From Candidatus Thorarchaeota archaeon (lineage in GTDB: Archaea; Asgardarchaeota; Thorarchaeia; Thorarchaeales; Thorarchaeaceae): 64,000 bases of DNA. The position numbers and the translations under genes are program-made. Location of the stretch: the NCBI GenBank assembly GCA_016840825.1, contig JAEORN010000106.1:6559-70558 (forward strand), read 5' to 3'. Each line of letters starts with the position of its first letter. Positions within the stretch are counted from its first letter, which is position 1. Positions 812-53,160 of this stretch are shown one piece after another. The notes beneath the pieces are model-generated. The model searched no databases. It was given only the letters and a program-made list of their open reading frames with translations, and was not told where the DNA came from.

Positions 812-812
812 T

Positions 813-7293: not shown

Positions 7294-7300
7294 ACCCCTG

Positions 7301-8123: not shown

Positions 8124-8135
8124 GACAAACGCAGT

Positions 8136-9128
8136 CTAAAGCCTTCTTGTCAACACGCGTATGAGTGCTATGAAGAATAATATTGGTCCTGCTATGACCA
8201 TCCCAAGGTAGAGGAATATTCCTAGAATTCCAGCTATCGGTGAGAGAAACACCCAGATAATTGACATTGCAAATATAATAAGGAAACCAGTAATGATATG
8301 TGCGCTACTGAATCCTGTCATATCCCCGTATGTATCCGGCGCGATTTCCTTCTCTTTGCTAAAGTAGAACATTGCTATCACGAGTAAGTAAAACAAGACT
8401 GTAAGTGCAAGGGTCAGAGGAGGTGCTATTCTCTCAGGCAAAATTACAATGAACAAGAATACGTAAAGAAACAGAGTATATGATATGACAATACCTAAGC
8501 CCCTTTTACCCAACCTGAGAGATTCCAAATTAAAGCCCTGTGGATGCCTATACATCGTTACTCCAAGAGATATGAAGAGAATTAGTCCGTTTGAGATGAT
8601 GGAGATGAGAGTCGCGCCAAGATCATATGCAAACCTTGTAGGGATGAATATGGATGAGATGAGCACGATTGAAATCACTACGATTATTCGCTTCTTTGTG
8701 ATTGCGAACTCATGCTGGTTCGAGCCGAGGATTTGGAATACAAACAGTGGGATGATGAACGAGAATATCGCGTGCCAGAACAAGGCGATAACCAAGAACT
8801 CTCCAATGGCAAATCCTAGGAATTGACCGAATTGCGGGTCCTGGTCCATATATCCCGCCCAGATGACCTTAGTCATCCAAGACTCATAGAGTCCATAGAT
8901 TATTCCCAAGATATACAGGTGTGTCACTGTTGTCTTTCTATACCTAAGAGCAATGTTCCATAGGATTAATCCGTGTCCCCAGTAGAGAGGCAGAACCACA
9001 AAGAGTCCCCATAAGTCCCACATCCATAAAGGTGATGAGCCTGAGAACACCTCCGCACAAATCACTGAAAGAATTCCAAAGAGGATGATGGGCGATAGAT
9101 TTGAAGTTCTCGCTCTTTCTTCCTCCAT
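8136..9128 (-). CDS. Polytopic membrane protein of unknown function
   Basis: About 330 residues and eight to ten hydrophobic helices with a short acidic and basic N-terminus (MEEERARTSN). A GTG four codons upstream (9140) is an alternative start. Polar residues cluster in loops, for example KVIWAGYMDQDPQFGQ after the second or third helix. I recognise no family. It is the first gene of the three-gene membrane operon and is divergent from the FGGY kinase about 110 bp away. Confidence 0.7.
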   Translation of the reverse strand: MEEERARTSNLSPIILFGILSVICAEVFSGSSPLWMWDLWGLFVVLPLYWGHGLILWNIALRYRKTTVTHLYILGIIYGLYESWMTKVIWAGYMDQDPQFGQFLGFAIGEFLVIALFWHAIFSFIIPLFVFQILGSNQHEFAITKKRIIVVISIVLISSIFIPTRFAYDLGATLISIISNGLILFISLGVTMYRHPQGFNLESLRLGKRGLGIVISYTLFLYVFLFIVILPERIAPPLTLALTVLFYLLVIAMFYFSKEKEIAPDTYGDMTGFSSAHIITGFLIIFAMSIIWVFLSPIAGILGIFLYLGMVIAGPILFFIALIRVLTRRL

Positions 9129-9239
9129 TATGACAACCACTATCTTTGAATGTTACTTCCCCTTTTGGCGTTTCGGTTATTTGAATACATCTCGAAGCCT
9201 TCTTATCCTCGATTGATTGAGGCATACTTAGTGGTCCTA

Positions 9240-10760
9240 ATGGTAGAGATGGTTGTAGCGATTGATGCTGGAACATCCGGAGTGCGTTCAATCTTCTTTG
9301 ATACAGAAGGGAATGTTCTCTCCATGACCTATCGAGAATTCAATAGCTCATATCCGAGTCCCTCATGGGTGGAACAGAATGCAAATCTATGGTGGGAAAC
9401 AGCATGCGCATCTCTAAAACATTCTATCAAGTCTGACAATATCCAAACGAAGGATATCATCGCTGTATGCATTACGAATCAAAGGGAAACTATTGTGCCT
9501 GTAGATATCCGGGGCAATCCACTACGACCCGCAATCGTATGGCAGGATAGAAGGACAACCAATCAATGTGAATGGATAGCTTCCGAAATCTCTCCTAAGA
9601 CCATTTACTCGATAACTGGACTTACCATCGATCCATATTTCTCAGCTCCCAAGATTCTCTGGATGAAGCAAAATGAGCCTGAGATTTTCAAGAAGGCGCA
9701 CATGTTCCTTCTTGTTCATGATTATCTGGTTTACAAGTTGACTGGTGAATTTGTAACGGATTTTTCTAACGCAAGTCGTACCATGCTACTGGATCTAAAG
9801 AAATCTGTCTGGTCGAACAAATTGCTGGAGGAGTTTAAGATTCCTTCTGAAAAGCTGCCAAGACTTGTAGAGTCTGGCACACTTATTGGTGAGATTTCGA
9901 ATGAAGCTGGCAAAGAAACAAAGCTACGGCCAGGAACTCCAGTGATAGCTGGTGGTGGTGATCAGCAATGTGCTGCATTAGGCGTTGGAGTTGTGAGAGA
10001 AGGTGCTATCAAAGCAACGACCGGTACTGGGACTTTCATACTTGCTTACTCTGGGAATCCTCGATTGGACCCTGAGCGTCGTGTGCTTTGTAGTAGACAT
10101 GTGGTGCCAAACGCATACGTCGTTGAGGCGAGCATGTTCACAACAGGATCTGCTCTTCGCTGGTTGAGAGATCATATTGCCACGGAGGAGCGCCATGTTG
10201 CAGGAGATAGGGGTATTGACCCCTATGAGGTCATCACTGAAGCAGCTGAGACTATACCTGCTGGATCTGAGGGTGTCATTCATCTTCCTCATTTTGTCGG
10301 TGCAGGTGCGCCACATTGGAATCCTCACGCTCGCGGTATATTTGCTGGTCTATCTCTGGGTCATACTCGTCGTCATCTCATGCGATCTGTTCTTGAGGGG
10401 GTGTCCTATGATATCCGCTCGAATCTGGAGGTCATGAAGAAACTCGGTCTTCCTACTGAAGAAGTCAGAGTTACTGGCGGCGCAGCTCGGAGTGACATTT
10501 GGATGCAGATACAGGCTGATGTACTTGGGATTCCTATCATCCGTACGAATCTTGAAGAAGCTACTGCACTTGGAGCAGCGATTCTCGCATGCAAAGGTGT
10601 AGGAGTATTCAGTTCTGTGTCTAGGGCAGCGGATGAGATGGTCGCTCAAAAGGATGTGCTCTATCCTGATGTTGCTAATAGAGAGGTCTATGATGCTGGA
10701 TTTGCTAAATTCACAGAACTCTATCGTGCAATCGCAGGTATCAAATGGGACTCTACTTAG
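9240..10760 (+). CDS. FGGY-family carbohydrate kinase
   Basis: ATP-dependent sugar or polyol kinase of about 506 residues. The actin-like fold is visible as the N-terminal phosphate loop (AIDAGTSGVRSIFFD), ITNQRETIVPVD, IVWQDRRT, the central GGGDQQCAALGVG, TGTGTF and the C-terminal ADP loop VTGGAARSDIWMQIQADV. ITNQRET and IVWQDRRT are closer to glycerol kinase, while the spacing suits both glycerol kinase and xylulokinase, so the substrate is undecided. A longer reading from TTG 9150 exists; I prefer ATG 9240 (or 9249) because the family begins right at this point. Its 3' end overlaps the convergent LarA-like gene by 8 nt. Confidence 0.85.
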   Translation: MVEMVVAIDAGTSGVRSIFFDTEGNVLSMTYREFNSSYPSPSWVEQNANLWWETACASLKHSIKSDNIQTKDIIAVCITNQRETIVPVDIRGNPLRPAIVWQDRRTTNQCEWIASEISPKTIYSITGLTIDPYFSAPKILWMKQNEPEIFKKAHMFLLVHDYLVYKLTGEFVTDFSNASRTMLLDLKKSVWSNKLLEEFKIPSEKLPRLVESGTLIGEISNEAGKETKLRPGTPVIAGGGDQQCAALGVGVVREGAIKATTGTGTFILAYSGNPRLDPERRVLCSRHVVPNAYVVEASMFTTGSALRWLRDHIATEERHVAGDRGIDPYEVITEAAETIPAGSEGVIHLPHFVGAGAPHWNPHARGIFAGLSLGHTRRHLMRSVLEGVSYDIRSNLEVMKKLGLPTEEVRVTGGAARSDIWMQIQADVLGIPIIRTNLEEATALGAAILACKGVGVFSSVSRAADEMVAQKDVLYPDVANREVYDAGFAKFTELYRAIAGIKWDST

Positions 10761-27372: not shown

Positions 27373-28641
27373 ATGGCTAATAATCGTGGATATAGTTTCT
27401 CTAGTTGGACTTCGTTCATAGAAGAATCACAGATTCGTGCTTTACTGAAGTATACAGTCAAGTACTATTTTGCCGGGGGCAAACCAGGAATAATGCCTAC
27501 AGATACTTTTGCGAAGATTATGCAGGATCTTGGCGCAAGATATCTAGAGGATCCAAAGCTTGCTCTCGATGATTTTAACTATGGTCCTACAGGAGGACAT
27601 TCTTGGTTTCTGAAAACCCTTGCTAAACGAATGTGCGAGGTAAGGGATATTCCCATAGATTGCGAAACTGGATGGGACAATGTATCAATAACAAACGGTT
27701 CTCAACAAGCAATCTATGCTCTTCTAGACACACTCTTGGATCCTGGTGACATTATTATCACTCCCTCTCCTGCATATCTTGGATTTCTTGTACCGGCTGT
27801 CAAACTGGGGGCAAGGGTAATCACCGTACCTACAGATTTGGAGGGTATCATACCTGAATATGTTGAGAAGGCTGTATACGTTTCTAAGAGGAAGTTTGGT
27901 AAGATACCTGACCTTGTCTATGTTGTACCAGATTCTGATAATCCTAAAGGGACAACACTCTCTCAAAAGCGACGCCAAGCACTATTTGATATCTGTGAGA
28001 GTCACAATATTCTCTTGATTGAGGACTCTGCCTACGCTGAGATTCAGTTCAAGAAGAATCCTAAGCCGATTAAGGCCCTAGACAAGGATAACCATCGAGT
28101 AGCATATCTTGGAACAACAAGTAAGGAAGCAGCAGTTCTCAGAGTTGGCTACTCTGTACTTCCACCCATTGTTCGAGACCAGGTTCTAAAGGACAAGGGT
28201 TACCTGGATCTTTGTACCTCTACCCTAGTGCAGAGGATTCTTGATGAGTACTACAGGAATTATATTGATGAAGCAATGAAACGAGCAATTCCCCTCTATA
28301 AGCAACGATATGAGGCAATGGCCAAAGCAATGGATGCATCTTTCCCTGCTGGTGATAGGACGGATCCAACTGGCGGTTTCTTCATATGGTGGCAGAGTGA
28401 AAATCCTGCTTTCGATAGTAAGAAGTTCATGGAAGAAGTAGCAATACCTAACGATTTACTCTATGTTCCGGGAGGTCCATTCTATCCAATCACTGGTTTT
28501 GCATTGACAGAGAATGGAAATGACATCATACCATCCAAACCGGAACAAAACACGATGCGTCTAGGGTTCTCTTATGCAGAACCTGATATCATCTCTGAAG
28601 GAATCGAGCGCTTGGGCAAGTTACTCTCAGAAAACATCTAG
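27373..28641 (+). CDS. Class I/II PLP aminotransferase (2-aminoadipate/aromatic type)
   Basis: PLP-dependent transaminase of 422 residues. Visible are FNYGPTGGHSWFLKTLAKRM (substrate-arm region), ITNGSQQAIYALLDTLLDPG, VVPDSDNPKGTTLS (in place of YxxPxxQNPTG), IEDSAYAEI and LGTTSKEAAVLRVGY holding the PLP lysine. The order resembles LysN/ARO8-type 2-aminoadipate aminotransferases. In an amino-acid fermenter it could make 2-oxoacids for ferredoxin oxidoreductases. A 171-bp gap with no feature I recognise precedes it, and a clean hairpin terminator follows. Confidence 0.88.
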   Translation: MANNRGYSFSSWTSFIEESQIRALLKYTVKYYFAGGKPGIMPTDTFAKIMQDLGARYLEDPKLALDDFNYGPTGGHSWFLKTLAKRMCEVRDIPIDCETGWDNVSITNGSQQAIYALLDTLLDPGDIIITPSPAYLGFLVPAVKLGARVITVPTDLEGIIPEYVEKAVYVSKRKFGKIPDLVYVVPDSDNPKGTTLSQKRRQALFDICESHNILLIEDSAYAEIQFKKNPKPIKALDKDNHRVAYLGTTSKEAAVLRVGYSVLPPIVRDQVLKDKGYLDLCTSTLVQRILDEYYRNYIDEAMKRAIPLYKQRYEAMAKAMDASFPAGDRTDPTGGFFIWWQSENPAFDSKKFMEEVAIPNDLLYVPGGPFYPITGFALTENGNDIIPSKPEQNTMRLGFSYAEPDIISEGIERLGKLLSENI

Positions 28642-28651
28642 ATTGCATGAG

Positions 28652-28684
28652 AAGACCTCAATGCTCTTAGTTGAGGTCTTTTCA
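28652..28684. terminator. Perfect 10-bp hairpin, bidirectional terminator
   Basis: AAGACCTCAA (28652-28661), 9-nt loop, TTGAGGTCTT (28671-28680), then TTTTC overlapping the end of the stem. It lies in the 40-nt gap between the converging aminotransferase and bshC-like genes and is the cleanest stem-loop in the window. Confidence 0.65.
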
Positions 28685-30397
28685 CACGATAAAATTCACG
28701 AAATACGTAGCTCCGTGCTTCATTCCCTGCACATATGCCCGTTGATATGGTCCAAATAGGTCTGCGAAGCCAGTATTAATCGCCCAATCAATCCACACCC
28801 AAGATGACTCTTGTGATAATTTGCCTTCTGCATATTGTCCGTATACCCAGCTCAGATACCTCTCGATATCCATTTTTAGTTGCAGATTCTCTTCAGAGGA
28901 TTGTCCTTCTTTCTCGATTGATGCAGTAAGTTGCTCAAGAGATACGTTCAAAGCTCTGTACGTATCCTTGATAACATCTGAGAGGGCATGAAGTTGCTCA
29001 TTCATCTCATCTATTCTACCCTTACTTCGAAATCTGGAAATCTTCCCGAGAGCTTTGAACATCTCTCCGCTATGTAGAATCAGATATTCCTTATCTTGCA
29101 GTTCTTTTGCAAGATTCTCATTCCATGGAGTATTATAATAGACCCTTGGGTATTTGACATATAGTGGGAATGGATAGTTCAATTCCTTGGCTACAGGGAT
29201 TACTTGGGCATAATATGCAGTTTCTCCAGGTCCCCCTGCATGTACAAGTACAGGTAGTGATGTGTCAATGATCATCTGCCTTGTGTCAACTCGAGGCGAT
29301 AGATGATGAAAGATCTCGGACAGATCCGGTGTTGTTGGATCAATCTCTATCTCAATATTCTCTCCACAGCTAGGACATTTCCCATGCAGGACTGCAGTTC
29401 TACCTTTATCAACATATGATAGCTCGGTCCTGCTTCGATTACAGACTTCATTGATGCACTCATAGTAAAATGGGACATAGTCGTCTGATCTAGAACCTAT
29501 CCCTGTTTCATAACCACTTCCTTCAATTATCTCTGATGCTTCACCGTGAATCTGTACTAGTTTCATTCGACTATCTTTCTGAAGAAGAAGTTCCATCCCG
29601 TAAGACCAAATTTCTCTGATTTCACTATCTGATGCCGAGAGAAGCGGTATTCCAAGATCTCCTTGGGAATTCAGCAAATGACCGATTATTCGAGTCGCCC
29701 ATTGTCCAAGAGTATGTGTATTCACAAAAGCATTCCTTATCAAAGATAATGCTGATTCTAGTCGTTCTTCGAAGAGGAATCGAGTATTTCCTTCAAGATT
29801 CTTGAACATTGGTCTATATCCTGCTCTGATATCCTCCTCTACTTTTTCATACCATGCATACTCAGGAAGTGGGATAACACTTACCGGTGAGTATTCAAAT
29901 CCTTCCGGAATAGGAATCGAAATTAGATTACCGCCTGATCCCATGATTGGTGTTCTCATATGGGTCAGTTCATTTTGGACGATATCATAATCTGCAACAC
30001 AGAAGAATGGAGCAAGTGGATGCTCCTCAGTTGAGTTGAAGGATGCGATACGTTCTGCAGTTGCCGCTTTGTTCAGGATGAAAGTTGGTCCTCCAAGAAC
30101 CGCTGATTGATGTGCTGATTCTATCGCACCAAGATGAAGATTCTTGATACTTTCCTTTACCTTTGGAGTCAGAATTCCAAGTCCCTTATTGATGCGATGT
30201 AGAGCACTCTTGAGTTTCTTCATCTTTTGGTCGGAGTGCCAGCCAGTACGCTCATATTCAACGAGAATCCCAAGCATTCTCTCATTATTACCTCCAAAAA
30301 CTTTGGGAGGGCTAGAATACAATCGTTCTGCCAAGTCTTGATTTGTATCCTTCCAAATGAAATCTTCGTATACTGAAACTACACTTGACTTGGACAT
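28682..30397 (-). CDS. bshC: BshC-like putative cysteine-adding enzyme
   Basis: In bacteria BshC adds cysteine to glucosaminyl-malate, completing bacillithiol. This 571-residue protein has the family core: SAVLGGPTFILNKAATAERI (cf. GQQ-GLFGGP-YKAxTAI), PLAPFFCVADYDIVQNELTH (cf. PVFWxAxEDHDxxE), LPVLVHAGGPGETAYYAQV and a C-terminal coiled coil. Unlike the bacterial enzymes I know, it carries C-x4-C and CPSCG about 21 residues apart near residues 310-340, a probable zinc ribbon. ATG 30397 follows the bshA-like stop by 6 nt with AGGTGAGGT as ribosome site, so the two are co-translated. The Cys-ligase role is inferred; family membership is fairly strong. Confidence 0.82.
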   Translation of the reverse strand: MSKSSVVSVYEDFIWKDTNQDLAERLYSSPPKVFGGNNERMLGILVEYERTGWHSDQKMKKLKSALHRINKGLGILTPKVKESIKNLHLGAIESAHQSAVLGGPTFILNKAATAERIASFNSTEEHPLAPFFCVADYDIVQNELTHMRTPIMGSGGNLISIPIPEGFEYSPVSVIPLPEYAWYEKVEEDIRAGYRPMFKNLEGNTRFLFEERLESALSLIRNAFVNTHTLGQWATRIIGHLLNSQGDLGIPLLSASDSEIREIWSYGMELLLQKDSRMKLVQIHGEASEIIEGSGYETGIGSRSDDYVPFYYECINEVCNRSRTELSYVDKGRTAVLHGKCPSCGENIEIEIDPTTPDLSEIFHHLSPRVDTRQMIIDTSLPVLVHAGGPGETAYYAQVIPVAKELNYPFPLYVKYPRVYYNTPWNENLAKELQDKEYLILHSGEMFKALGKISRFRSKGRIDEMNEQLHALSDVIKDTYRALNVSLEQLTASIEKEGQSSEENLQLKMDIERYLSWVYGQYAEGKLSQESSWVWIDWAINTGFADLFGPYQRAYVQGMKHGATYFVNFIV

Positions 30398-30403
30398 TCA
30401 ACC

Positions 30404-31570
30404 TCACCTTGACTCAAGGACTGTTTCGAATAATTTCTCATATTGTGTCACAATTTTATCTGCTGAGAAACTCTCTTCCACTCTTTTCCTACCAGATAAT
30501 GCGTACTTCTTTCTAAGAGAGTCATCCTCCAACATGTCGATGACTGCTTGTGCGAATTCATCACCCTCAAAACCCTTTGTTACCATACCGTCAATTCCCG
30601 GTCTAACAAGCTCTGGTATCCCTCCTGCAGGTGTTGTCACTACTGGTAATCTACAGGACATCGCTTCGAGTAGAACCAGAGGCATTCCCTCTTCTGTGGA
30701 ATTTAAGAGGAATAGGTCCGCAGAGCACATGATTTGCTGCATGTTTGTCTTGATACCCAGTAGATGGATGTTGTTGCAAAGATCCATCTCCTCGATCTTT
30801 CGCTCGACCTCGATTCTTGTTGGTCCATCCCCTGCAATGATTAGCCTAGCTTTAGGATAATGATCAACGACAATCCGCATCAGCTCAACAAGTTCTACGA
30901 CTCGTTTTACTTTCCGGAAATTCGAGGCATGCAAGAGAATCTTCTCATCTGGAGCGATCTCCTCCAATTCCTTCTCAGTCCTAAGGGATACGCAGCCACT
31001 CTCAACAGTCAATCTCGTACCATCAAGATGTGAGAACTTCTCAATGTTGATAAAGTTCGGAATAACATGTAGCTCTCTTTCAATTCCAAGATCTTCTTGT
31101 GCTCGTCTACAAAGGTACTCAGAAACGCATGTCACAGCATCAGCCTTTTCTACCGTATGTTTCACAACTGGCTGGTACGCAGGATCAAGACCTAGGGTGT
31201 GTACATCGGAGCCATGGAGTGTCACTACATAAGGTGTTCCAGTGATCTCTCTTGCCATATATGCTGCCATTGCATGTGGAATCGCATAATGGGAATGAAT
31301 AAGGTCCAATTTGGAATCATTGATTACCTTTACCATCTTTGAGGTCAAAGCCATCGTATATGGAGGACCAATGCTATTGAATAAGGGGTAGTCGAATCTA
31401 TCGACTAAGTCTACATAGACTCCTCGTGTCTGCTCCCACATTAAAGAGAAGGGCCGCTGATATGTGATGAAGTGAATGATATGCTCTCTGGAAGCAAGAT
31501 GCTGACCAAGTCTAGTAGCTAGATATCCAGACCCACCAACAGTGGGGTATAAGTTGACACCAATTCTCAC
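30404..31570 (-). CDS. bshA: BshA-like GlcNAc-malate synthase (GT4 glycosyltransferase)
   Basis: BshA transfers GlcNAc from UDP-GlcNAc to L-malate. The 388-residue GT4 protein matches BshA closely at the N-terminus: MRIGVNLYPTVGGSGYLATR, HIIHFITYQRPF, PPYTMALTSKMVKVI and LIHSHYAIPHAMAAYMARE, the last being particularly characteristic. Further motifs are TLHGSDVHTLG, HVIPNFINIEKF, LLHASNFRKVKR (phosphate site) and STEEGMPLVLLEAMSC (EX7E). GTG start with AGGTCG upstream. It is directly upstream of bshC. A general GT4 role is possible, but motif pattern plus neighbours favour BshA. Confidence 0.87.
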   Translation of the reverse strand: MRIGVNLYPTVGGSGYLATRLGQHLASREHIIHFITYQRPFSLMWEQTRGVYVDLVDRFDYPLFNSIGPPYTMALTSKMVKVINDSKLDLIHSHYAIPHAMAAYMAREITGTPYVVTLHGSDVHTLGLDPAYQPVVKHTVEKADAVTCVSEYLCRRAQEDLGIERELHVIPNFINIEKFSHLDGTRLTVESGCVSLRTEKELEEIAPDEKILLHASNFRKVKRVVELVELMRIVVDHYPKARLIIAGDGPTRIEVERKIEEMDLCNNIHLLGIKTNMQQIMCSADLFLLNSTEEGMPLVLLEAMSCRLPVVTTPAGGIPELVRPGIDGMVTKGFEGDEFAQAVIDMLEDDSLRKKYALSGRKRVEESFSADKIVTQYEKLFETVLESR

Positions 31571-31680
31571 GCTAAACGACCTTTAGGACATTGATAGAAT
31601 AATTCCCTTTAAGGGAAATGGTTTGGGCTACATTCCCACTAAGTCCATATCAATTCACAGTACAAACTCATTACTTTGCT

Positions 31681-32415
31681 TCATGAAGGGCCAAAAGCTA
31701 GTTCCTCGACCTTATCTTTCGCTTTCTTAGCCTCTTCCATCCTACCTTGCTTCTCTAAAAGAATTGCTAAACCTGCCCAAGCTAATGAATTAGATGGTTT
31801 CAGCTCAACCGCCTTTCTATATGATGTTTCACTCTCAACATGCTTCTCTTGTCTAGCAAGTACAGTCGCAAGATTATACCATGATTCTGAAGACCTAGGT
31901 GCAAGCTCTATTGCTTTCCTGAATGCTATCTCAGCATCTTCAAGTTTGTCCAATTCAGCACGTATCAACCCTAGATTATGCCAGGCAATAGGATGGCGTG
32001 AATTCAATTCAATAGATTGCAGACAAATAACCTCTGCTCTTTCTACCTGACCTAATCTTTGGAGTACAAGAGCTAGATCCATCATAACGTTCGAGTCTTT
32101 TGGATCGAGCTCCAATGTCCTCTTAAATGCATGAGCACATTCTTCGTATAATCCTAGAGCATTCAAGGTCTTTCCTAAATTGGACCAAGCTATTACGAAA
32201 TCTGACTTGAGTTCGACAGCCTTTCGAAGTGCTTCAGCAGATTCCTTGAACCTTCGCTGTATGCCAAGTACCACTCCAAGTTCATTCCATACTTCTGCAT
32301 GTGTTTGGTCATGCTGAAGGATTCCCCGAAAGACTACCTCCGCCTCCTCCCACCGTGATTGTTCCAGAAGTTTTATCCCTTTATCTATGCTGACTGAGAT
32401 CTCATCGTCCCTCAT
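31681..32415 (-). CDS. TPR-repeat protein
   Basis: About 244 residues made of six or seven 34-residue tetratricopeptide repeats, e.g. AEVWNELGVVLGIQRRFKES, VIAWSNLGKTLNALGLYEEC, PIAWHNLGLIRAELDKLEDA. The C-terminus is charged. A protein-interaction scaffold. It sits between bshA (110 bp downstream, same strand) and bshB (divergent), so it may belong to the same functional group, though TPR proteins are common and this is only positional. Start at MRDDEIS preferred. Confidence 0.8.
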   Translation of the reverse strand: MRDDEISVSIDKGIKLLEQSRWEEAEVVFRGILQHDQTHAEVWNELGVVLGIQRRFKESAEALRKAVELKSDFVIAWSNLGKTLNALGLYEECAHAFKRTLELDPKDSNVMMDLALVLQRLGQVERAEVICLQSIELNSRHPIAWHNLGLIRAELDKLEDAEIAFRKAIELAPRSSESWYNLATVLARQEKHVESETSYRKAVELKPSNSLAWAGLAILLEKQGRMEEAKKAKDKVEELAFGPS

Positions 32416-32527
32416 GATGGATGTCCACATCTTCGCTCAAACAAAATCCCAGTCATAAGGATTATGTTGTTCAAACTGTATATCACTTTGCCAAACGTTG
32501 ATTAGAATGTGCCCCACTGGATAGATT

Positions 32528-33196
32528 ATGCCTAAAGAGAATACTAACTCCATCTTGGTGATTTGTGCTCATCCAGATGATGAAACTCTTGGAGCTGGTG
32601 GAACTATCGCTGCACACACAGAAGAAGGTGTCCCTGTTGATGTGATGTGCCTTACATCAAATGATATCCGAAAATCAGAGCTTGAAGCGGCATGTGCAGA
32701 TTTGGGCGTTCGGGAAATATATGTTGGTCGACGTGATGATTTTGCCATTGACATGAGTCTGAGAACTGAAGTCGTGGACGCTATCCTCCATTCTCGCCCA
32801 AAAATTATCATCACACATTCCAAAGAAGACTATAATCAGAATCACGTGCTGTGCTCTGAGCTCGTCAGTCAAGCTGCAGAATGGGCATCCCACACCACTT
32901 TGTATGATGATGCGCACAAAGTAGATAGCATCTACCATATGGAGATCAATAGTCTTCTCTCGCGTCCTCAGGTTCTTGTGGATATCAGTTTAAGCTACCA
33001 AAGAGCTTTGAAAGCGTTAAACAATCATCAATCACAAATTGACAAAGCTGAAGGGTTCTATCTAAAGTTCTATGATGCCCGTACAAGACTCCGAGGAGTA
33101 CAAGCTTCATGTGCTCGTGCTGAAGCTTTCACCATAGAGATTCCATTCCATGCTGGACCATTCTATCCAGAGAACAGTGTAAAACGACTCATCTAA
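32528..33196 (+). CDS. bshB: BshB-like N-acetyl-glucosaminyl deacetylase (PIG-L family)
   Basis: Zinc-dependent deacetylase; in bacillithiol synthesis it removes acetyl from GlcNAc-malate. The 222-residue protein has VICAHPDDETLGAGGTI with the zinc His and Asp of HPDDE, a mid-chain HSKEDYNQNHVLC providing the third zinc ligand, and the C-terminal half typical of LmbE-like enzymes (SQIDKAEGFYLKFYDARTRL). The family also includes MshB, DPG deacetylases and PIG-L, so the specific substrate rests on bshA and bshC being within 4 kb. Its stop overlaps the convergent gene by 4 nt. Confidence 0.83.
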   Translation: MPKENTNSILVICAHPDDETLGAGGTIAAHTEEGVPVDVMCLTSNDIRKSELEAACADLGVREIYVGRRDDFAIDMSLRTEVVDAILHSRPKIIITHSKEDYNQNHVLCSELVSQAAEWASHTTLYDDAHKVDSIYHMEINSLLSRPQVLVDISLSYQRALKALNNHQSQIDKAEGFYLKFYDARTRLRGVQASCARAEAFTIEIPFHAGPFYPENSVKRLI

Positions 33197-33594
33197 TCAC
33201 TGCTTGTTTCTGTTGCACCATCAGATTTGTGTCTTCTAGCTGCAAGGAGTGCCTTGAGCTCTCCCATCATGCTCATTCCGCCTCCACCAGCTGGTTTGGG
33301 AGATGGAGCTTTCGCGATTGGAGCCATAGCCATGTCTGGTGATGCGTCTGCAGCAGCGGAAGGTGATAAGGTAGCTCCTGATGCGATTCTATTAGCTAAT
33401 GAGTCAATCCTTGAATCTAGAGCTGAAATCTGCCCTTCTATCTCATCTAGTCGCTTCTCTAGCAGTCCAAAGGCATCGATGAGCTTTCCTGTTATGATAC
33501 TAACAACTTCTCCAAGTTGTCTGAGCTTCTCTTCGGTAGGGTCCTTTAGGGCCCATTCGAATTCTTCCATAATGAAATCGTCGTCGTCGCCCAT
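33193..33594 (-). CDS. Coiled-coil protein with Gly/Pro linker and basic C-terminal helix
   Basis: A 133-residue protein: acidic N-terminus (MGDDDDFIMEEFEWAL), coiled coil (about residues 40-70, ending DSRIDSLANRIAS), an Ala/Pro/Gly linker, then GGGGMSMMGELKALLAARRH and an acidic tail. The layout of coiled coil, flexible linker and short amphipathic basic helix is reminiscent of eukaryotic actin-regulatory adaptors, but there is no recognisable WH2 consensus. It shares strand with the upstream phosphosugar mutase. Function unknown. Confidence 0.65.
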   Translation of the reverse strand: MGDDDDFIMEEFEWALKDPTEEKLRQLGEVVSIITGKLIDAFGLLEKRLDEIEGQISALDSRIDSLANRIASGATLSPSAAADASPDMAMAPIAKAPSPKPAGGGGMSMMGELKALLAARRHKSDGATETSSD

Positions 33595-33665: not shown

Positions 33666-35042
33666 CTAATTCGAATTGATTATGTTCTCTACAATACCTT
33701 TGGTTCGTTCTAGAATAGAGTCTACCAATTCCTCAGTTGGGGCCTCACAGGTTATTCGTATTACTGGTTCAGTACCCGAGGGCCTTACCAAAACCCATCC
33801 CTGTGATAATGATATACCAAGACCATCCACAGTGATTATCTCTTTGACGTCATCCAAGTGCTTCGGGATTTCATCTTCCAAGATTGACATCACTGTTGCT
33901 TTCTTTTCATTGGATACCTTCACTTTTGCTTTCTTCAATGGGTAGATTGGAATCTCAGATATTAGTTCACCAAATGATTTGTTTGTCCTTGCCATCATCT
34001 CCAATAGTTTACATGATGCTAGGAATGGTTCTGGAGCATAGTGAAACTCAGGAAAGACAAACACTCCACATGCTTCTCCTCCATGAGTTGCCTTGCTTTG
34101 CTTTATTCTTAGTGAAACCTGAATATCCCCTACTGGAGTTCTTTCTGTTCTTCCGCCTGCCTTGGCGACAGCTTCATCCAAGACTTTGGAACTATCGACC
34201 GTTGTAACAATCAGTTTATTCGGGCTTGATTTAAGAAACTCAATCGCGAAGAGTGTGATTGTACGATCCCCTCTTACCACCTCTCCGGTTTCTGTTACGA
34301 ATACGACTCTATCTGAATCACCATCATGAGCTATTCCCAAATTTGCATTGGAATCCCTGACTAATTTGATCAAATCCCCAAGAGATTCCTCTTCTGGCTC
34401 CGATTTTCTTCCTGGAAAATGACCATCCAGTTGTCCATTTATGGTGATCACACTACAGCCTAATCTCTGCATCAAGTATGGGGTGAGAACGCATGCAGAT
34501 CCATTTCCAGGGTCTACAATGACCCGATAATTCTTCGATTTGATGAGGTTTGTATCACACTGCTCAAGCAATGACTCGATGTGAAGTTCTGCGGCGTTCT
34601 CTAGAGATGTTACGGATCCAATGGAGTCCCAGCTAGCGACATTGAACTCTTTGGAATAGAATATCTCTTCAATTCTCGCCTCGTTGTTGGGAGTAAATCC
34701 CATACTGTCATTGCCCCAGAATTTCACTCCTGTGTACTCTGGAGGATTATGTGATGCTGTGACCATAACGCCAGCACTAAATCCCAACCTTTTGGTTATG
34801 AACGCAAGTGTTGGAGTTGGAATAATACCAGCTCTTCTAACATTGACACCTGTTGAGATAATTCCTGCAGTGAGAGTGTCTGCAACCATTTGTCCCGTCG
34901 TTCTTACATCTCTCGCTAACAGAATGGTTCCTTTTCCTAGATAGGTGCCGACAGCTTTCCCAAGATCGAGTGCCATATCAAGGGTGAATTCATCTCCATA
35001 GAGCTTTCTGACCCCTGTCGTACCGAAGAGCTTGCCTGTCAT
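33666..35042 (-). CDS. glmM: Phosphoglucosamine/phosphomannomutase
   Basis: Moves phosphate between C6 and C1 of hexosamine or hexose. The 458-residue alpha-D-phosphohexomutase has the phosphoserine loop VTASHNPPEYTGVKFW, metal-binding DGDSDRVVFV, sugar-binding GGEACGVFVFPEF and phosphate-binding RPSGTEPVIRI. GGEACG with this spacing suits archaeal GlmM. It would supply GlcN-1-P toward UDP-GlcNAc, the substrate of the neighbouring BshA-like enzyme. ATG 35042 chosen over TTG 35051. Confidence 0.87.
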   Translation of the reverse strand: MTGKLFGTTGVRKLYGDEFTLDMALDLGKAVGTYLGKGTILLARDVRTTGQMVADTLTAGIISTGVNVRRAGIIPTPTLAFITKRLGFSAGVMVTASHNPPEYTGVKFWGNDSMGFTPNNEARIEEIFYSKEFNVASWDSIGSVTSLENAAELHIESLLEQCDTNLIKSKNYRVIVDPGNGSACVLTPYLMQRLGCSVITINGQLDGHFPGRKSEPEEESLGDLIKLVRDSNANLGIAHDGDSDRVVFVTETGEVVRGDRTITLFAIEFLKSSPNKLIVTTVDSSKVLDEAVAKAGGRTERTPVGDIQVSLRIKQSKATHGGEACGVFVFPEFHYAPEPFLASCKLLEMMARTNKSFGELISEIPIYPLKKAKVKVSNEKKATVMSILEDEIPKHLDDVKEIITVDGLGISLSQGWVLVRPSGTEPVIRITCEAPTEELVDSILERTKGIVENIINSN

Positions 35043-35141
35043 GATACTCAAATTGACTTCACTCCTTCGAATAGAAAAAGGTAACTAATGCAGAAAACTC
35101 CTATATGGAATTCAGCTAAGCACATCAAGAGGTTGTCAACC

Positions 35142-46345: not shown

Positions 46346-47947
46346 ATGATTCCGATTAAGGATGTGGCATCAAAGGCTGGAATTCCTGAGAAATATCTAG
46401 AGCTCTATGGAAACTATATGGCAAAAATCACTCTTGATATCAAAAAGGAACTCGGTGCTCGGAAGGGTAAATTGATCTTAGTTACAGCCACGAATCCAAC
46501 GCCAGCGGGTGAAGGAAAGACAACGAATTCTATTGGTCTTTCAATGGCTTTGAATGCACTTGGATACAATGCAGCCGTAACATTAAGACAACCATCACTA
46601 GGCCCTGTATTTGGAGTAAAGGGTGGTGCTGCTGGTGGAGGTAGCTCTCGCGTTGAGCCATTTGAGAAAATTAACCTTCTATTCACCTCGGATTTTCCTG
46701 CAGTTTCATCAGCACATAATCTGCTTTCTGCTATGATCGATAACTACATTCAGCAGGAGAAAGATCCCGAAATCGATGTTAGACGAGTCTATTGGCCAAG
46801 GACTGTCGACATGAATGATCGGGCTCTTCGAAAGGTCATTGTAGGTCTGGGCGGACGATTCGATGGATTTCCACGTGAGGACAACTATGTTATCACAGCA
46901 GCTTCTGAGGTCATGGCGATTCTTGCCCTTGCAAAGGACTATCGAGATCTTAAGAAACGTCTTGGCGATATTCTCATTGCAAGGACACATGATTTGAAGG
47001 AGATGTATGCACGTGATCTGAAAGCAGAGGGAGCCATGGCTGTACTTCTGAGAGATGCACTCAAGCCCAATCTTGTACAAACCTCTGAGGGAACACCTGC
47101 AATCATCCATGCCGGTCCATTTGCGAATATAGCTCATGGTACAAATTCAATAGTTGCCACAGATCTTGCTTTACGGGTCTTTGATTATGTGGTGATTGAA
47201 GCAGGTTTCGGTGCTGATTTAGGCGCTGAGAAATTCTTCAACATCGTCACTCGTATTGGTGAGTTCACCGTTGATGTCGTTGTAGTGGTGACCACTATTC
47301 GTGCATTGAAATATCATGGCTCTGATGACCTTGCTGCTGGTTTTCCGAATTTGGAAAAGCATATGGAGAATATCAACAACTTTGGTGTTCCTGCAGTTGT
47401 TGCACTAAATCGATTCCCAGATGATACAGATGAGGAAATTGAAACTCTCCGAGGGTTCTGTAAGAATCGCGGATGGCAATTGGAGGTTTCGGAGGTATTT
47501 GCTAAGGGTGGTGAAGGCGGTAAGAATCTCGCACAAGCAGTGATTGATACCATAAAGGACCATCCCACTCCCAAAATCAAGTACACCTACGACCTAAAAG
47601 AGAAGTTGGAAACCAAAGTGTGCAAAGTTGCCCAGAATATCTATGGGTCTCTCGATGTAGAGTATGGCTCTGGAGCTCTTGGAATCTTGCGTTCCTTCGA
47701 GAAGCGAGGATATGGCAAGCTCCCCGTATGCATTGCAAAGACACAGTTCAGTTTGTCTGATAATAAAGGTTTGAAAGGTCGTCCTGAAGGTGATAAGGCT
47801 GAAGTCATGGGCGCCTTTGTAAGCAATGGTGCTGGATTCGTTGTTATCCAAATGGGTGATATCAATCTCATGCCCGGACTTCCTGAGGTCCCGGCAGCAG
47901 AGGGAATGGATATTGATGATGATGGAAATATCAGTGGAGTTTTCTAA
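46346..47947 (+). CDS. fhs: Formate-tetrahydrofolate ligase
   Basis: Interconverts formate, THF and ATP with 10-formyl-THF, ADP and phosphate. The 533-residue protein has the P-loop-like TATNPTPAGEGKTTNSIGLS, TLRQPSLGPVFGVKGGAAGG, FTSDFPAVSSAHNLLSAMID and PGLPEVPAAEGMDIDDDG near the end, all canonical. It is slightly shorter than the usual 555 or so. FolD follows after 16 nt, and a formiminotransferase-cyclodeaminase lies 3.6 kb on. Run backwards, it would make ATP from formimino-group breakdown. A THF enzyme in an archaeon is notable, since many archaea use methanopterin instead. Confidence 0.95.
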   Translation: MIPIKDVASKAGIPEKYLELYGNYMAKITLDIKKELGARKGKLILVTATNPTPAGEGKTTNSIGLSMALNALGYNAAVTLRQPSLGPVFGVKGGAAGGGSSRVEPFEKINLLFTSDFPAVSSAHNLLSAMIDNYIQQEKDPEIDVRRVYWPRTVDMNDRALRKVIVGLGGRFDGFPREDNYVITAASEVMAILALAKDYRDLKKRLGDILIARTHDLKEMYARDLKAEGAMAVLLRDALKPNLVQTSEGTPAIIHAGPFANIAHGTNSIVATDLALRVFDYVVIEAGFGADLGAEKFFNIVTRIGEFTVDVVVVVTTIRALKYHGSDDLAAGFPNLEKHMENINNFGVPAVVALNRFPDDTDEEIETLRGFCKNRGWQLEVSEVFAKGGEGGKNLAQAVIDTIKDHPTPKIKYTYDLKEKLETKVCKVAQNIYGSLDVEYGSGALGILRSFEKRGYGKLPVCIAKTQFSLSDNKGLKGRPEGDKAEVMGAFVSNGAGFVVIQMGDINLMPGLPEVPAAEGMDIDDDGNISGVF

Positions 47948-47963
47948 GAAGTAGGTGTATATG

Positions 47964-48845
47964 ATGAGTGATGATGAATCAAAACCGGTTCTAGAGGACC
48001 ATGTTATCATGGGAAAGCGATTATCCGCTCAGATTAGAAAGGAGGTTCAAGGTGAAGTAGAGACTTTGATAGCGAAATACAACCTCCCCCCAAAATTAGT
48101 CACGATTATCGTCGGTGATGACCCTGGCTCTGAGATGTATGTTCGCATGAAGCGTAAGGCATGCGAGAAAGCAGGTATACTATCTGATCACTATGACCTC
48201 GCTGAGAGTACGACTCAGGATGAGCTATTAGCTCTATTGGACAAATTGAACAAGGATAGGACGGTGCATGGAATCTTGGTTCAATTGCCTCTTCCTAAGC
48301 ATATTGATGAGAAGACCATCATTGGTGCACTCAATCCACTGAAGGATGTTGACGGTTTCTCTCCAATGAACGTCTATCGTCTTTTCTACGGTGGAGAGAA
48401 GCTGAGTGCAGCAACACCACATGGAATTGTGACGATGCTTGATTCCATAGGAATGAATGATCTATCTGGGAAGCATGCTGTCATTATTAATCGATCAAAC
48501 ATTGTCGGGAAACCACTCATCATGTTACTTCTTAATAGGAATGCGACGGTGACGGTCTGTCATTCCCGTACAGCAGACCTTCCTTCTTGGACGAGGATGG
48601 CTGATGTTTTAGTTACTGCTATAGGACGTAGAACTTCAGAAGAAGACCCCTTCTACATTACCGCAGATATGGTTAAGGAAGGTGCTGTGGTCATTGACGT
48701 GTCAACACCTAATGGAGATGTTGATTTTGAGGCAGTCAAGTCGAAGGTCAAGGGAATAACTCCTGTTCCTGGTGGAGTTGGACCAATGACGATTACAATG
48801 CTTCTAAGAAACGTAATTGATGCATACACATCTCAGATATCCTAG
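47964..48845 (+). CDS. folD: Methylene-THF dehydrogenase/methenyl-THF cyclohydrolase
   Basis: Bifunctional FolD of about 293 residues. SEMYVRMKRKACEKAGI carries the catalytic Lys (YxxxKxKAC), ILVQLPLPKHIDEKTI, DVDGFSPMNVYRL, NRSNIVGKPLIMLLLN and CHSRT are family blocks, and GVGPMTITMLLRN ends it. It connects methylene-, methenyl- and 10-formyl-THF, between the cyclodeaminase and formate-THF ligase reactions. AGGTG (47953-47957) is 6 nt before ATG 47964. Immediately downstream of fhs, so one operon. Confidence 0.94.
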   Translation: MSDDESKPVLEDHVIMGKRLSAQIRKEVQGEVETLIAKYNLPPKLVTIIVGDDPGSEMYVRMKRKACEKAGILSDHYDLAESTTQDELLALLDKLNKDRTVHGILVQLPLPKHIDEKTIIGALNPLKDVDGFSPMNVYRLFYGGEKLSAATPHGIVTMLDSIGMNDLSGKHAVIINRSNIVGKPLIMLLLNRNATVTVCHSRTADLPSWTRMADVLVTAIGRRTSEEDPFYITADMVKEGAVVIDVSTPNGDVDFEAVKSKVKGITPVPGGVGPMTITMLLRNVIDAYTSQIS

Positions 48846-48931
48846 GTGCAGCCACCTATCATGATTTATTAGAAAGTAACCCCATCTCCTATAGTTGGCT
48901 AATGTCCTTAGCTAGTAATGGGGTGCTGCTA

Positions 48932-49987
48932 ATGAAGGATTATGAAATCCATCCATTTGATGTATCGAAAGCATCAAGGGATGAATGGTCTAGATTTCAT
49001 CGCTTTCGTAGAATGAGAAATGCTGAGGTCTTTCCAGGAGATTCCGTGGAGGAGGACTCAACATATGAAGAATGGGCTGTTTTCATGCATACCGATAATG
49101 TAGTTACTTCCTACTATGCGATGTCGAAGAAGCAACCTGATGAAATTGTTGGATGGCTCCAAATGTCCTTTGCAAAAGAAACAAGTCCTTCGTACAAGGG
49201 GAATGAGTACTCTCTAAACGTTAGAAGTCTTGGAGTGCTAAAAGACCACCGAAGAAATGGAATAGGGACAGGTTTTCTAAAGATTGTCCATGATTTTGCT
49301 GTTGAGAATCACAAACGGACTATAATTGGTTACACAATCGAACCTGAGGGTAGAACGGTTGGACAGTTGATAGGTGGAAAGGAAGCACTCGATATGCGTG
49401 TGTATCGTCTCAATATGGATTCAGTGGATTGGAACATGATTAGTAAGTGGATTTCTGACGGACGCAAAAGGTCTCCTGATGCAACTCTAGAATTCTACGA
49501 GAAGATTCCTGAAGAAATTCTAGGAGCATATTGCAGGAAATATACCGAGTTCTATAACCAAATGCCCTTAGAGGATCTAGATGTCGGAGCAATTGTGCTT
49601 ACTCCTGAGAGTCGGAAACAACATGAGGAGTCCTATGCAAAGACTGGTGAGATTTGGCTGACAGGAATAATTCGAGAGAAGAATGGTGATATTTCTGGTC
49701 TTACAGATATCGTCTATGATCCAAGTGAGACCACTATTGTGAAACAAGCGCTTACGGGTATCGATCCAAGCTATCGTGGCTCCGGGAAAGGCAAGTGGAT
49801 TAAAGCTGCAATGCTGGAGAGAATTCGTGAAGAATTCCCTGATGTACGGATAATATCTTCAACTATAGCAAATACAAATGATGCAATGCTATCGATAAAC
49901 GAGCGTATGGGTTTCACACCTCACCGAGAAGTATACTATATTCAAATTGAAACAGAGAATCTTGGACTGTACCTTCAGGGGCGATAG
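48932..49987 (+). CDS. Tandem-GNAT acetyltransferase-like protein
   Basis: About 351 residues with two GNAT domains. The first has VRSLGVLKDHRRNGIGTGFL (acetyl-CoA loop), the second ALTGIDPSYRGSGKGKWIKA and SINERMGFTPHRE. The second loop reads RGSGKG, a good Q/RxxGxG/A match. The N-terminus EWSRFHRFRRMRNAEVFPGD may form a substrate lid. GGGGTG before ATG 48932 supports that start over 48902. It lies between folD and the 4-hydroxybutyryl-CoA dehydratase. Acceptor unknown. Confidence 0.83.
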   Translation: MKDYEIHPFDVSKASRDEWSRFHRFRRMRNAEVFPGDSVEEDSTYEEWAVFMHTDNVVTSYYAMSKKQPDEIVGWLQMSFAKETSPSYKGNEYSLNVRSLGVLKDHRRNGIGTGFLKIVHDFAVENHKRTIIGYTIEPEGRTVGQLIGGKEALDMRVYRLNMDSVDWNMISKWISDGRKRSPDATLEFYEKIPEEILGAYCRKYTEFYNQMPLEDLDVGAIVLTPESRKQHEESYAKTGEIWLTGIIREKNGDISGLTDIVYDPSETTIVKQALTGIDPSYRGSGKGKWIKAAMLERIREEFPDVRIISSTIANTNDAMLSINERMGFTPHREVYYIQIETENLGLYLQGR

Positions 49988-50066
49988 GCAATAATTAGTG
50001 CAATAACAATCGCAAAGAAAAACCACTTTAGGTTTCTATCTTCTTTCTCTTTGGAGACGATTACAT

Positions 50067-51530
50067 ATGACCATAATGACTGGATCTCAATATATCGAGA
50101 GTCTGAGGAAACGTGGACCATTGACAATATACTTACTTGGTGAGAAGATTGAGAATCCCGTTGATCACCCAATAATTCGTGCTTCCATTAATTCCGTTGC
50201 GCTTACCTACGATTTAGCAAATGTTCCTGAGTATCAAGAATTGATGACAACAAAATCTATGATTACAGGAAATAGAATCAACCGTTTCTGTCATCTTCAT
50301 CAAAGTACTGATGATTTGCAAGATAAAGTGAAGATGCAGAGAATTCTGGGCCAGAAGAGCGGAACCTGTTTTCAACGCTGTGTTGGAATGGACGCTTTGA
50401 ACGCTGTGTATCTCACAACATTCGAGATTGACGAGAAATTCGGGACTGATTATAATAAACGATTCGTGGAGTATGTGAAACAAGCTGAGGATAATGATTG
50501 GGTAATTGATGGATGCATGACCGACCCCAAAGGTGATAGAGGAAAACGTCCATCAGAACAGAAAGACCCGGATGTCTATGTTCGTGTCGTGGAGCGCAGA
50601 GAGGATGGAGTGGTTATCAGAGGAGCGAAAGCACATCAAACAGGTGCAGTTAACTCACATGAACATTTGATTATGCCAACTCTTGCAATGAGGAATGAGG
50701 ATAAGGACTTCACCATATGTTGTGCTGTGCCAGCGGATGCACCTGGAATAACGTATTACTATGGAAGGCAATCTTGTGATCTTCGTCGACTAGATGAGAG
50801 TGCTGGAGGTGATATTGATTGCGGAAATCCCGTCTATGGCGGACAGGAGTGTCTTGTAGTATTTGATGATGTCTTTGTGCCAACTGAACGGGTCTTCATG
50901 AACGGTGAAACAGACTTCTGTAGTCGTCTCGTTGATACCTTTGCTGCATATCATCGTCAGAGCTATGGTGGTTGCAAGGTTGGAGTTGGCGATGTCTTAA
51001 TAGGTGCAGCCGCGAGCATCGCAGAATACAATGGTGTTGAAAGCGCATCCCATATCAAGGACAAGATCACAGAGATGACTCATCTAAATGAAACTCTATA
51101 TTCCTGTGGAATTGCGTGTTCAGCTGCAGGTGAGAAAACTCCAGCTGGCAACTACCTGGTAGATATCCTTCTTGCTAATATCTGCAAGCAGAATGTCACT
51201 CGATTTCCGTATGAGATAGCTCGACTTCTTCAGGACATTGCAGGAGGTCTCTTTGTCACATGTCCAAGTGCCAAAGAAATGGAGAATCCAGCAACTCGCC
51301 AGATTATTGAGAAGTATCTCGCAGGAGCCTCTGGAGTAGAAACTGAAGATAGGATAAAGATGCTCCGTCTGATTGAGAACCTCACTCTGGGCAGAGCTGC
51401 GGTTGGTTACCTAACAGAATCTATGCACGGAGCAGGGTCTCCACAGGCTCAAAGAATCATGATTAACCGGATGTCCAACATAGAGGCGAAGAAAAAACTC
51501 GCAAAGGATTTGGCACAAATCGAGAACTGA
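50067..51530 (+). CDS. abfD: 4-Hydroxybutyryl-CoA dehydratase/vinylacetyl-CoA isomerase
   Basis: FAD and [4Fe-4S] enzyme converting 4-hydroxybutyryl-CoA to crotonyl-CoA. The 487-residue protein keeps all four cluster ligands known from the clostridial enzyme (Cys99, Cys103, His292, Cys299): Cys101 and Cys105 in GTCFQRCVG, and His296 and Cys303 in HRQSYGGCK, with identical spacing within each pair. The Lys after the last Cys and a His in GAKAHQTGA are also kept. Without these residues it would be an HpaB-type hydroxylase, so the call is specific. It may serve glutamate/GABA or succinate-semialdehyde fermentation, or run in an autotrophic cycle; the other cycle enzymes are not here. Confidence 0.92.
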   Translation: MTIMTGSQYIESLRKRGPLTIYLLGEKIENPVDHPIIRASINSVALTYDLANVPEYQELMTTKSMITGNRINRFCHLHQSTDDLQDKVKMQRILGQKSGTCFQRCVGMDALNAVYLTTFEIDEKFGTDYNKRFVEYVKQAEDNDWVIDGCMTDPKGDRGKRPSEQKDPDVYVRVVERREDGVVIRGAKAHQTGAVNSHEHLIMPTLAMRNEDKDFTICCAVPADAPGITYYYGRQSCDLRRLDESAGGDIDCGNPVYGGQECLVVFDDVFVPTERVFMNGETDFCSRLVDTFAAYHRQSYGGCKVGVGDVLIGAAASIAEYNGVESASHIKDKITEMTHLNETLYSCGIACSAAGEKTPAGNYLVDILLANICKQNVTRFPYEIARLLQDIAGGLFVTCPSAKEMENPATRQIIEKYLAGASGVETEDRIKMLRLIENLTLGRAAVGYLTESMHGAGSPQAQRIMINRMSNIEAKKKLAKDLAQIEN

Positions 51531-51564
51531 GAGCGGTAATGACCCATCCCAAACGCTTTTCAAT

Positions 51565-53160
51565 ATGGAACGTTCCGAGCGCACCTTGGTGGGTCTATTG
51601 AAGATCATTGAGTGTGTACCCAATTTCTCAGAAGGTCGTGACAAGAAGGTCATAGAAGCGTTATCTGATGCTATCAAGAGTGTTGAAGGTGTAAGGCTTC
51701 TCGATGTAGAGTTTGATCCTGATCACAATCGATCTGTCTTCACCTTTATTGGTGAACCCCAAAAGGTCAAAGAAGCTGCATTGAAGGCGGCAGAGCTTGC
51801 TGTAGAAAAGATTGACCTGACAAAGCACAGCGGTCAGCACCCCCGCATGGGAGCAGTAGATGTCGTCCCATTCATCCCACTCCACGGGACAACCATTGGG
51901 GAGTGTATTGAGATATCAAAGGAATTCGCTGAGGAGTTCTCCAAGAAATGCAATATTCCAGTGTATCTCTATTCAAAGGCTGCGACACGTCCTGAGAGGA
52001 TCGAACTCCCTAACATAAGAGAAGGCGAGTTCGAAGGACTTAGAGACCTTATTGGTAAGGACCCCGCGAAGGACCCTGATTATGGCCCGAACAAGATTCA
52101 TCCAACAGCCGGTGCAACTGCGACAGGCGCTCGCAATTTCCTCATCGCGATTAACTTCAATCTTAGCACAGACAATGTTAAGGTCGCTCAAGTGTGCGCC
52201 GATGCTGTTAGAGGTACGACAGGTGGATTCGTAAATGTCCAAGGAATTGGACTTGAATTGCCTGACAAGAAATGCGCTCAAGTTTCATGTAACTTGACAC
52301 ATCCGAAACGAACCAAGATTCATCAGGTATTAGAAGTGGTGCGCAACGAAGCTCGTCGCTTTGGGGCAACCGTTGTCGAGACGGAGATTGTTGGGATGGT
52401 ACCACTCTTCGCACTTATTGATGCCCTCAAGTACTATCTCCAGCCTGAGAAGCTCGAAGAGAGCATGATTTTAGATCTATACTACTTGGGAGGTTCTGAG
52501 GATCCTACAAAGAAGACTTTCACCGAGATGTCTGTGATAGAGTTTGGCGATGAGATTCGCAGGGCACGTGCAACTCCTGGAGGTGGAAGTGTCGCTGCAG
52601 CTATTGGCTCCTATGGTGCAGGATTAGTGTGTATGGTGACGGGTCTCTCACTCTCTGGTAGAAGATTTGCTGCAATCAAAGACGAGATGATCGAACACCG
52701 TCATGCTGCAGAGAACGACCGAGGCGTGCTAATGGGATTAGTAGAAACTGATTCAGCTGCGTTCGATGACGTAATGGCATTGTTCAAGCTCCCAGAGGAA
52801 ACTGATGCGGAGAAGAAAAAGAAAGCGGAGGCAATTGAGGAAGCCACCATAAAAGCGGCATCCATCCCATTGGAAACGATGCGTCACTCCTACAGCGCGA
52901 TGACTCACGCAAAAGTCGCTGCAGAGAAAGGAAATGCCAATGCAATTACCGATGCTGGAGTAGCAGCTCACGCACTGATGGCAGCCATTGAAGGTGCTGC
53001 ATTGAATGTGCGAATCAATCTTGGAAACATCAAGTCAAAGGACTTTGTTGAGAGGACTGCTGCAGAAGTTGAGAAGATCATCTCACAAGGCAGAAAGTTG
53101 AAGGAAGAGATTCTTGAAATCGTTGAGGCTCGAATGAAAGAACTTGCTGAAGGCGCGTAG
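51565..53160 (+). CDS. ftcd: Fused glutamate formiminotransferase / formimino-THF cyclodeaminase
   Basis: Bifunctional protein of 520-531 residues. The N-terminal transferase has KIIECVPNFSEGRDKKVIE, HNRSVFTFIGEP, and KHSGQHPRMGAVDVVPFIPL (catalytic His); its second half has IHPTAGATATGARNFLIAIN. The cyclodeaminase begins about residue 335 with ARATPGGGSVAAAIGSYGAG and continues to the helical bundle. It moves formimino from formiminoglutamate to THF and releases ammonia, giving methenyl-THF for FolD. The fusion matches the animal enzyme layout. ATG 51565 is given; TTG 51598 with GGTGGG upstream would start right at the family N-terminus. Confidence 0.93.
   Translation: MERSERTLVGLLKIIECVPNFSEGRDKKVIEALSDAIKSVEGVRLLDVEFDPDHNRSVFTFIGEPQKVKEAALKAAELAVEKIDLTKHSGQHPRMGAVDVVPFIPLHGTTIGECIEISKEFAEEFSKKCNIPVYLYSKAATRPERIELPNIREGEFEGLRDLIGKDPAKDPDYGPNKIHPTAGATATGARNFLIAINFNLSTDNVKVAQVCADAVRGTTGGFVNVQGIGLELPDKKCAQVSCNLTHPKRTKIHQVLEVVRNEARRFGATVVETEIVGMVPLFALIDALKYYLQPEKLEESMILDLYYLGGSEDPTKKTFTEMSVIEFGDEIRRARATPGGGSVAAAIGSYGAGLVCMVTGLSLSGRRFAAIKDEMIEHRHAAENDRGVLMGLVETDSAAFDDVMALFKLPEETDAEKKKKAEAIEEATIKAASIPLETMRHSYSAMTHAKVAAEKGNANAITDAGVAAHALMAAIEGAALNVRINLGNIKSKDFVERTAAEVEKIISQGRKLKEEILEIVEARMKELAEGA

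Follow-up and report, generated by a model that had tools for sequence, protein, structure and literature searches.

A conserved gene cluster for a probable bacillithiol-type pathway in Thorarchaeota, with a distinct archaeal form of BshC

Introduction

Bacillithiol synthesis in Bacillus and other bacteria involves BshA, BshB1/B2 and BshC, and the activities of BshA, the deacetylase and BshC are known for the bacterial enzymes, going by the available text of PMC7278568 and of PMC6282198, the latter of which does not contain the word archaea. The mycothiol pathway (MshA, MshB, MshC) is built alike, with an N-acetylglucosamine (GlcNAc) glycoside, a deacetylase and, as cysteine ligase, a relative of the class I aminoacyl-tRNA synthetases; according to the available text of PMC2922099, MshC is believed to follow an adenylate route. 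Here we describe a bsh gene cluster in a 64,000-nucleotide stretch of a Thorarchaeota-type contig (the window). It has the same three enzyme classes as the bacterial bacillithiol pathway, with an equivalog BshA and the PIG-L motif, and probably encodes a three-step pathway of the bacillithiol type.

An earlier reading made from the DNA and its open reading frames (the sequence-only reading) took archaeal bacillithiol genes to be more of a novelty than they are. PMC7278568 (2020) had already named Asgard homologues, with 39 InterPro matches each for BshA and BshC in archaea, mostly Asgard; its available text gives matches to BshA, BshC and YpdA only, and does not analyse BshB, the order of the genes, or the clade and structure of BshC. 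The available text of PMC12719100 (2025), based on BLAST from Chlorobaculum with thresholds of E 1e-20 and 25% identity, reports no archaea with the complete pathway. Identity between the window BshC and bacterial-type proteins is 14-19% (Chlorobaculum itself not being among those compared), which would explain why that study missed it. As far as their available texts go, the two papers disagree on the low-molecular-weight thiol of Asgard archaea, a question that the conserved three-gene locus makes directly testable. The pathway claim is sound but anticipated in the literature. The archaeal form of BshC, its kinship with class I lysyl-tRNA synthetase (LysRS-I) and a gene set with a GT2-type gene were not found in print, and the link between BshC and LysRS-I was likewise absent from the available texts of PMC9437257 and PMC2922099.

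The three bsh genes of the window

Genes were called as open reading frames with translations. The BshC-like gene (28682-30397, minus strand, 571 residues) encodes an archaeal-type protein predicted to be the cysteine:glucosaminyl-malate ligase. It is separated by 6 nucleotides from bshA (30404-31570, minus strand, 388 residues), which encodes the predicted N-acetylglucosaminyl-malate synthase of the GT4 type. The PIG-L gene (32528-33196, plus strand, 222 residues, AHPDDE motif), the predicted equivalent of BshB (GlcNAc-malate deacetylase), begins 957 nucleotides from the bshA start. The cluster pointed out by the sequence-only reading is real, with the frames as it described them and the quoted motifs present, and the matches are far beyond chance, given profile E-values of 1.3e-111, 4.6e-18 and 5.5e-25 for BshA, BshC and PIG-L, respectively, and the gene order that is kept.

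The window BshA scores 373.2 bits against the TIGR03999 equivalog (cut-off 273.7), covering positions 1-374 of the 375 in the profile, and the second-best NCBIfam model reaches 138.7 bits. Its top sequence matches in the PDB are 2jjm (247.3 bits) and 5d00, which is named BshA (243.7 bits), and it aligns to named BshA over the full length, N-terminal half included. A mycothiol reading was rejected on profile scores (52.6 bits for the MshA equivalog, cut-off 462.5).

The window BshC exceeds the gathering cut-off of PF10079 (57.5 bits against 27), has the BshC fold on fold comparison, and keeps the nine strictly invariant residues that are also kept in bacterial BshC. The PIG-L protein exceeds the cut-off of PF02585 (78.5 bits against 28.2), and in the PDB it is closest in sequence to 2ixd (an LmbE-related protein) and 6p2t, which carries the name N-acetylglucosaminyl-malate deacetylase 1. 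Residues H17, D19, D20, D103 and H108 (numbering of locus L002), among which we take the zinc ligands to lie, occur in all 51 PIG-L rows scoring at least 250, some of these rows sharing one genome. Across 24 genomes searched with PF02585, four (G001, G185, G212 and G070) have a sole PIG-L, in each case beside bshA, and the remaining 20 have 2 to 5 matches each.

Conservation of the locus in Asgard archaea

A genome scan with an alignment as the query found 45 loci, 36 of them in Asgard archaea (L001-L036) and 9 in bacteria; a single-protein query matched none. The 36 Asgard contigs are titled Thorarchaeota (33), Lokiarchaeota (2) or simply "archaeon" (1), and the named proteins closest to the window BshC, among the best 120 of 303 listed, are also mostly from Thorarchaeota, which bears out the archaeal host proposed earlier. 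As far as each contig extends, and with L034 as the exception, the recurrent order is glmM, a small gene, PIG-L (divergent), bshA, bshC, an aminotransferase gene (convergent) and pyrF. Where bshA is in view (33 of 36 loci), it always precedes bshC on that gene's strand at a distance of no more than 60 nucleotides (-32 to +31 nucleotides), and 31 of these 33 loci have the divergent PIG-L gene within 800 nucleotides. The other two are L021, where the contig ends within bshA, and L034.

BshC and BshA also co-occur across 227 surveyed genomes of the Asgard phylum. BshC (PF10079) matches are present in 104 (94 over the cut-off) and BshA at E<=1e-60 in 93 (89 over the cut-off); 87 genomes have both, 17 BshC only, 6 BshA only and 117 neither (Fisher p 3.5e-37, uncorrected for kinship or incomplete genomes).

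Three quick trees, with SH-aLRT values (an approximate likelihood ratio test) as the only support measure, were made for BshC, PIG-L and BshA. A long starred branch of the BshC tree (75 rows) splits 40 archaeal-type rows from 35 others, the latter made up of bacterial proteins and four bacterial-like ones from Asgard archaea, and the window protein is within a starred Thorarchaeota clade. The PIG-L tree (74 rows) groups together the 27 bsh-linked archaeal PIG-Ls of BshA-bearing lineages, that of the window included (94, not starred). The BshA tree (43 rows) leaves out 13 bacterial loci with no bshA in view, as well as L167, which duplicates L040. It has a three-way division into Thorarchaeota plus L094/095/110/111, other Asgard archaea, and bacteria plus bacterial-like Asgard proteins; having no outgroup, it says nothing on a single archaeal origin. 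The subgroups that recur in all three trees are Thorarchaeota, L094/095/110/111, and a group with tail-to-tail bshA and bshC joined with L084-L089/097/100. Taken as an informal sign and not as a formal test of congruence, this recurrence agrees with a common history among the Asgard archaea.

A probable bacillithiol-type pathway

The computed family or fold of each enzyme, the conserved linkage and the conserved BshC residues point to a pathway whose substrates, adenylate step, product and redox role we propose by analogy with the bacterial enzymes. BshA would join GlcNAc from UDP-GlcNAc to L-malate, and the divergently transcribed PIG-L protein would take the acetyl group off GlcNAc-malate. 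The archaeal-type BshC would activate the carboxyl group of cysteine with ATP, as in class I aminoacyl-tRNA synthetases, which act through an aminoacyl adenylate. It would then ligate the activated cysteine to the amine of glucosamine (GlcN), so that the product would be Cys-GlcN-malate (bacillithiol) or a closely similar compound. The neighbouring GlmM may support the supply of UDP-GlcNAc.

A number of results weigh against this assignment. The statement of the sequence-only reading that specific families are matched, and not just folds, stands for BshA only (373 against 273.7 bits): the window BshC, above the Pfam threshold as it is, falls below the cut-off of the TIGR03998 equivalog (65.4 bits against 265.8, E 4.6e-18), and the best NCBIfam match of the PIG-L protein, TIGR04001 (BshB1), is also below its cut-off (88.4 bits against 182.5, E 5.5e-25). 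In the quick PIG-L tree the bsh-linked archaeal group stands apart from bacterial BshB1 and from 24 other Asgard PIG-Ls (94, not starred). The C-terminal coiled coil of bacterial BshC (PF24850), present in both bacterial-type proteins scanned, was not detected at E<=1 in the window BshC or in seven other archaeal-type proteins. L034 has bshA-bshC with 3.8 kb upstream in view and no PIG-L gene. Of the 104 genomes with BshC, 17 have no BshA at E<=1e-60, indicating that BshC can serve something else, and in G215, G026 and G214 the absence of BshA resembles contig breaks or a scaffold gap. (A frame of 1240 residues in G214 that resembled a BshC fusion was rejected, as it spans a stretch of N in the scaffold.) Bacilliredoxin (PF06491) was found in none of 30 Asgard genomes, relatives of the window genome, and YpdA over its cut-off in none of the eight Thorarchaeota-type genomes among them. 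The pathway assignment nevertheless holds up despite the equivalog scores of BshC and PIG-L, because of the synteny, the co-occurrence, the match to the BshC fold and the nine invariant residues.

The locus could instead make a related but different thiol by the same logic, either using an acceptor other than malate or modifying the product afterwards. The divergence of the archaeal-type BshC and PIG-L is in favour of this, as are two other kinds of Asgard gene set. At six loci (L092, L093 at 6246-9571, L106, L107, L109 and L163) a GT2-type gene, a PIG-L gene and bshC stand on one strand, in genomes with no full-score BshA; the GT2 gene was profile-tested in L093 and L107, is truncated where the contig ends in L092, and was recognised by eye in L106, L109 and L163. 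The six GT2-linked PIG-Ls lie near bacterial BshB1 in the PIG-L tree, together with 4 of the 24 other Asgard PIG-Ls, and that of L093, the only one tested, passes the BshB1 cut-off (212.9 bits against 182.5). It is possible that this set makes a different cysteinyl-glucosamine thiol. At L101-L105, bshC lies beside an aminotransferase gene with neither bshA nor a BshB-like PIG-L gene in view, again in genomes with no full-score BshA; the named matches in this group come under various taxa (Hodarchaeales/Hodarchaeota, Heimdallarchaeota, Hermodarchaeota and others). For the window itself we think a different thiol improbable, since BshA has a full score, with the N-terminal half aligned, both here and in those Thorarchaeota-type genomes whose bshA is intact.

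The three bsh-type genes also occur in other orientations in several lineages, for some of which the profile matches are named Heimdallarchaeota or Kariarchaeaceae. In the tail-to-tail group (genomes in the G011-G033 range) bshA and bshC converge, and the PIG-L gene, which belongs to the same group in the tree, is located elsewhere in the genome.

The archaeal form of BshC

Archaeal BshC is a distinct form with a zinc-ribbon-like piece resembling that of LysRS-I. It is like bacterial BshC in its fold and its nine strictly invariant residues, and unlike it in belonging to a distant clade, in having the cysteine ribbon and in lacking the coiled coil. The identity of the window protein to bacterial-type BshC is 14-18% in one alignment and 16-19% in another. 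Its insert has four cysteines (C314, C319, C341 and C344), from which zinc binding may be predicted. In a phmmer search of the PDB with the window BshC, phycobilisome linkers ranked above BshC; these matches were short and weak and were not used. P0226, a protein named as from Bathyarchaeota, is a BshC of the archaeal type and has the cysteine ribbon, so that the family may extend past the Asgard archaea.

In profile comparisons, archaeal BshC matches LysRS-I with E 1.3e-5 when the ribbon is included, E 2.7e-5 for the ribbon alone and E 0.036 with the ribbon cut out. Thorarchaeota alone give E 0.0032, the tail-to-tail group alone 0.11 and a joint archaeal and bacterial BshC profile 0.3. Most of the similarity in sequence therefore lies in the ribbon, and the remainder of the link is carried by the fold comparison. 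Unlike LysRS-I (PDB 1irx), BshC is a separate gene that exists beside a full-length LysRS-I, as in the Thorarchaeota-type genomes G001 and G185. That the BshC-like protein is a LysRS-I paralogue placing an amino acid other than cysteine onto a glucosamine-containing molecule such as a cell-surface glycan, within a glycan-modification cluster, seems to us very unlikely.

If BshC is kin to LysRS-I, its ancestry would parallel that of MshC, the cysteine ligase of mycothiol, which comes from cysteinyl-tRNA synthetase, and the ribbon form could tell the direction of pathway transfer between domains. Tentatively, the archaeal-type BshC might be the older, having arisen in archaea by duplication of LysRS-I and passed to bacteria with loss of the ribbon and gain of the coiled coil. 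Bacillithiol would then be an archaeal invention, within an Asgard family of Cys-GlcN thiols whose GT2 branch leads to another aglycone; we regard this scenario as doubtful but worth stating.

That the window genes are what is left of a pathway that came from bacteria, decayed or put to another use, is scarcely credible. Of the 227 Asgard genomes, 9 do have a bacterial-like bshC (258-280 bits), with bshB and then bshA after it (bshA being out of view at L051), but the window genes are full-length, their synteny and invariant residues are kept, and the window BshC falls in the archaeal clade, which is deeply separated from the bacterial-like one. The bacterial-like bshC-bshB-bshA sets themselves (L112, L113, L115; L046-L054) look like lateral transfer, their BshC grouping with bacteria.

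Redox partners

The locus differs from the bacterial pathway in its PIG-L, which is below the BshB1 cut-off, and may differ in its redox partners: among the 30 related genomes searched, bacilliredoxin was found in none and YpdA over its cut-off in 3 (G042:C134:11344-12306, G037:C120:401-1363 and G044:C2:342363-343331). All three also hold archaeal-type BshC. YpdA-profile matches at E<=1e-15 occur in 29 of the 30, nearly all below the cut-off. The eight Thorarchaeota-type genomes were recognised by locus (G001-G003), by gene order (G185, G194 and G212) or only by BshA and BshC scores and place in the list (G196 and G222). At all five loci fetched (L149-L153), the gene immediately before PIG-L is thioredoxin-reductase-like and encodes a CAVC motif; its family was tested in L150 only. 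These PIG-Ls are of the bsh type and belong to the tail-to-tail group, and the CAVC protein is a candidate disulfide reductase of the thiol.

Neighbouring genes

The tetratricopeptide repeat (TPR) gene between bshA and PIG-L (31681-32430, minus strand), which the sequence-only reading passed over, has no counterpart in L001-L036 and is not part of the conserved cluster. The small gene between PIG-L and glmM (33193-33594, minus strand) and glmM itself are recurrent neighbours in related loci; the small protein had no family over the cut-off in NCBIfam and Pfam profile searches, and is a coiled-coil protein by weak matches only. GlmM, the archaeal phosphoglucosamine mutase on the route to UDP-GlcNAc, scores 515.5 bits against TIGR03990 (cut-off 439); the sequence-only reading had the gene right but ended it at 35042, whereas with its TTG start it spans 33666-35051 (minus strand). 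On the other side, the conserved convergent neighbour of bshC is a class I/II aminotransferase gene (27373-28641, plus strand; PF00155, 76.5 bits), and the resulting tail-to-tail pair (27373-30397) is common to Thorarchaeota and the L101-L105 Asgard group. Further away, and judged by eye only, the left end of the window (2-1739) has arginine deiminase-like and ornithine carbamoyltransferase-like genes, and one-carbon genes, among them formate-tetrahydrofolate ligase-like and FolD-like ones, lie near 46-49 kb (46346-53157).
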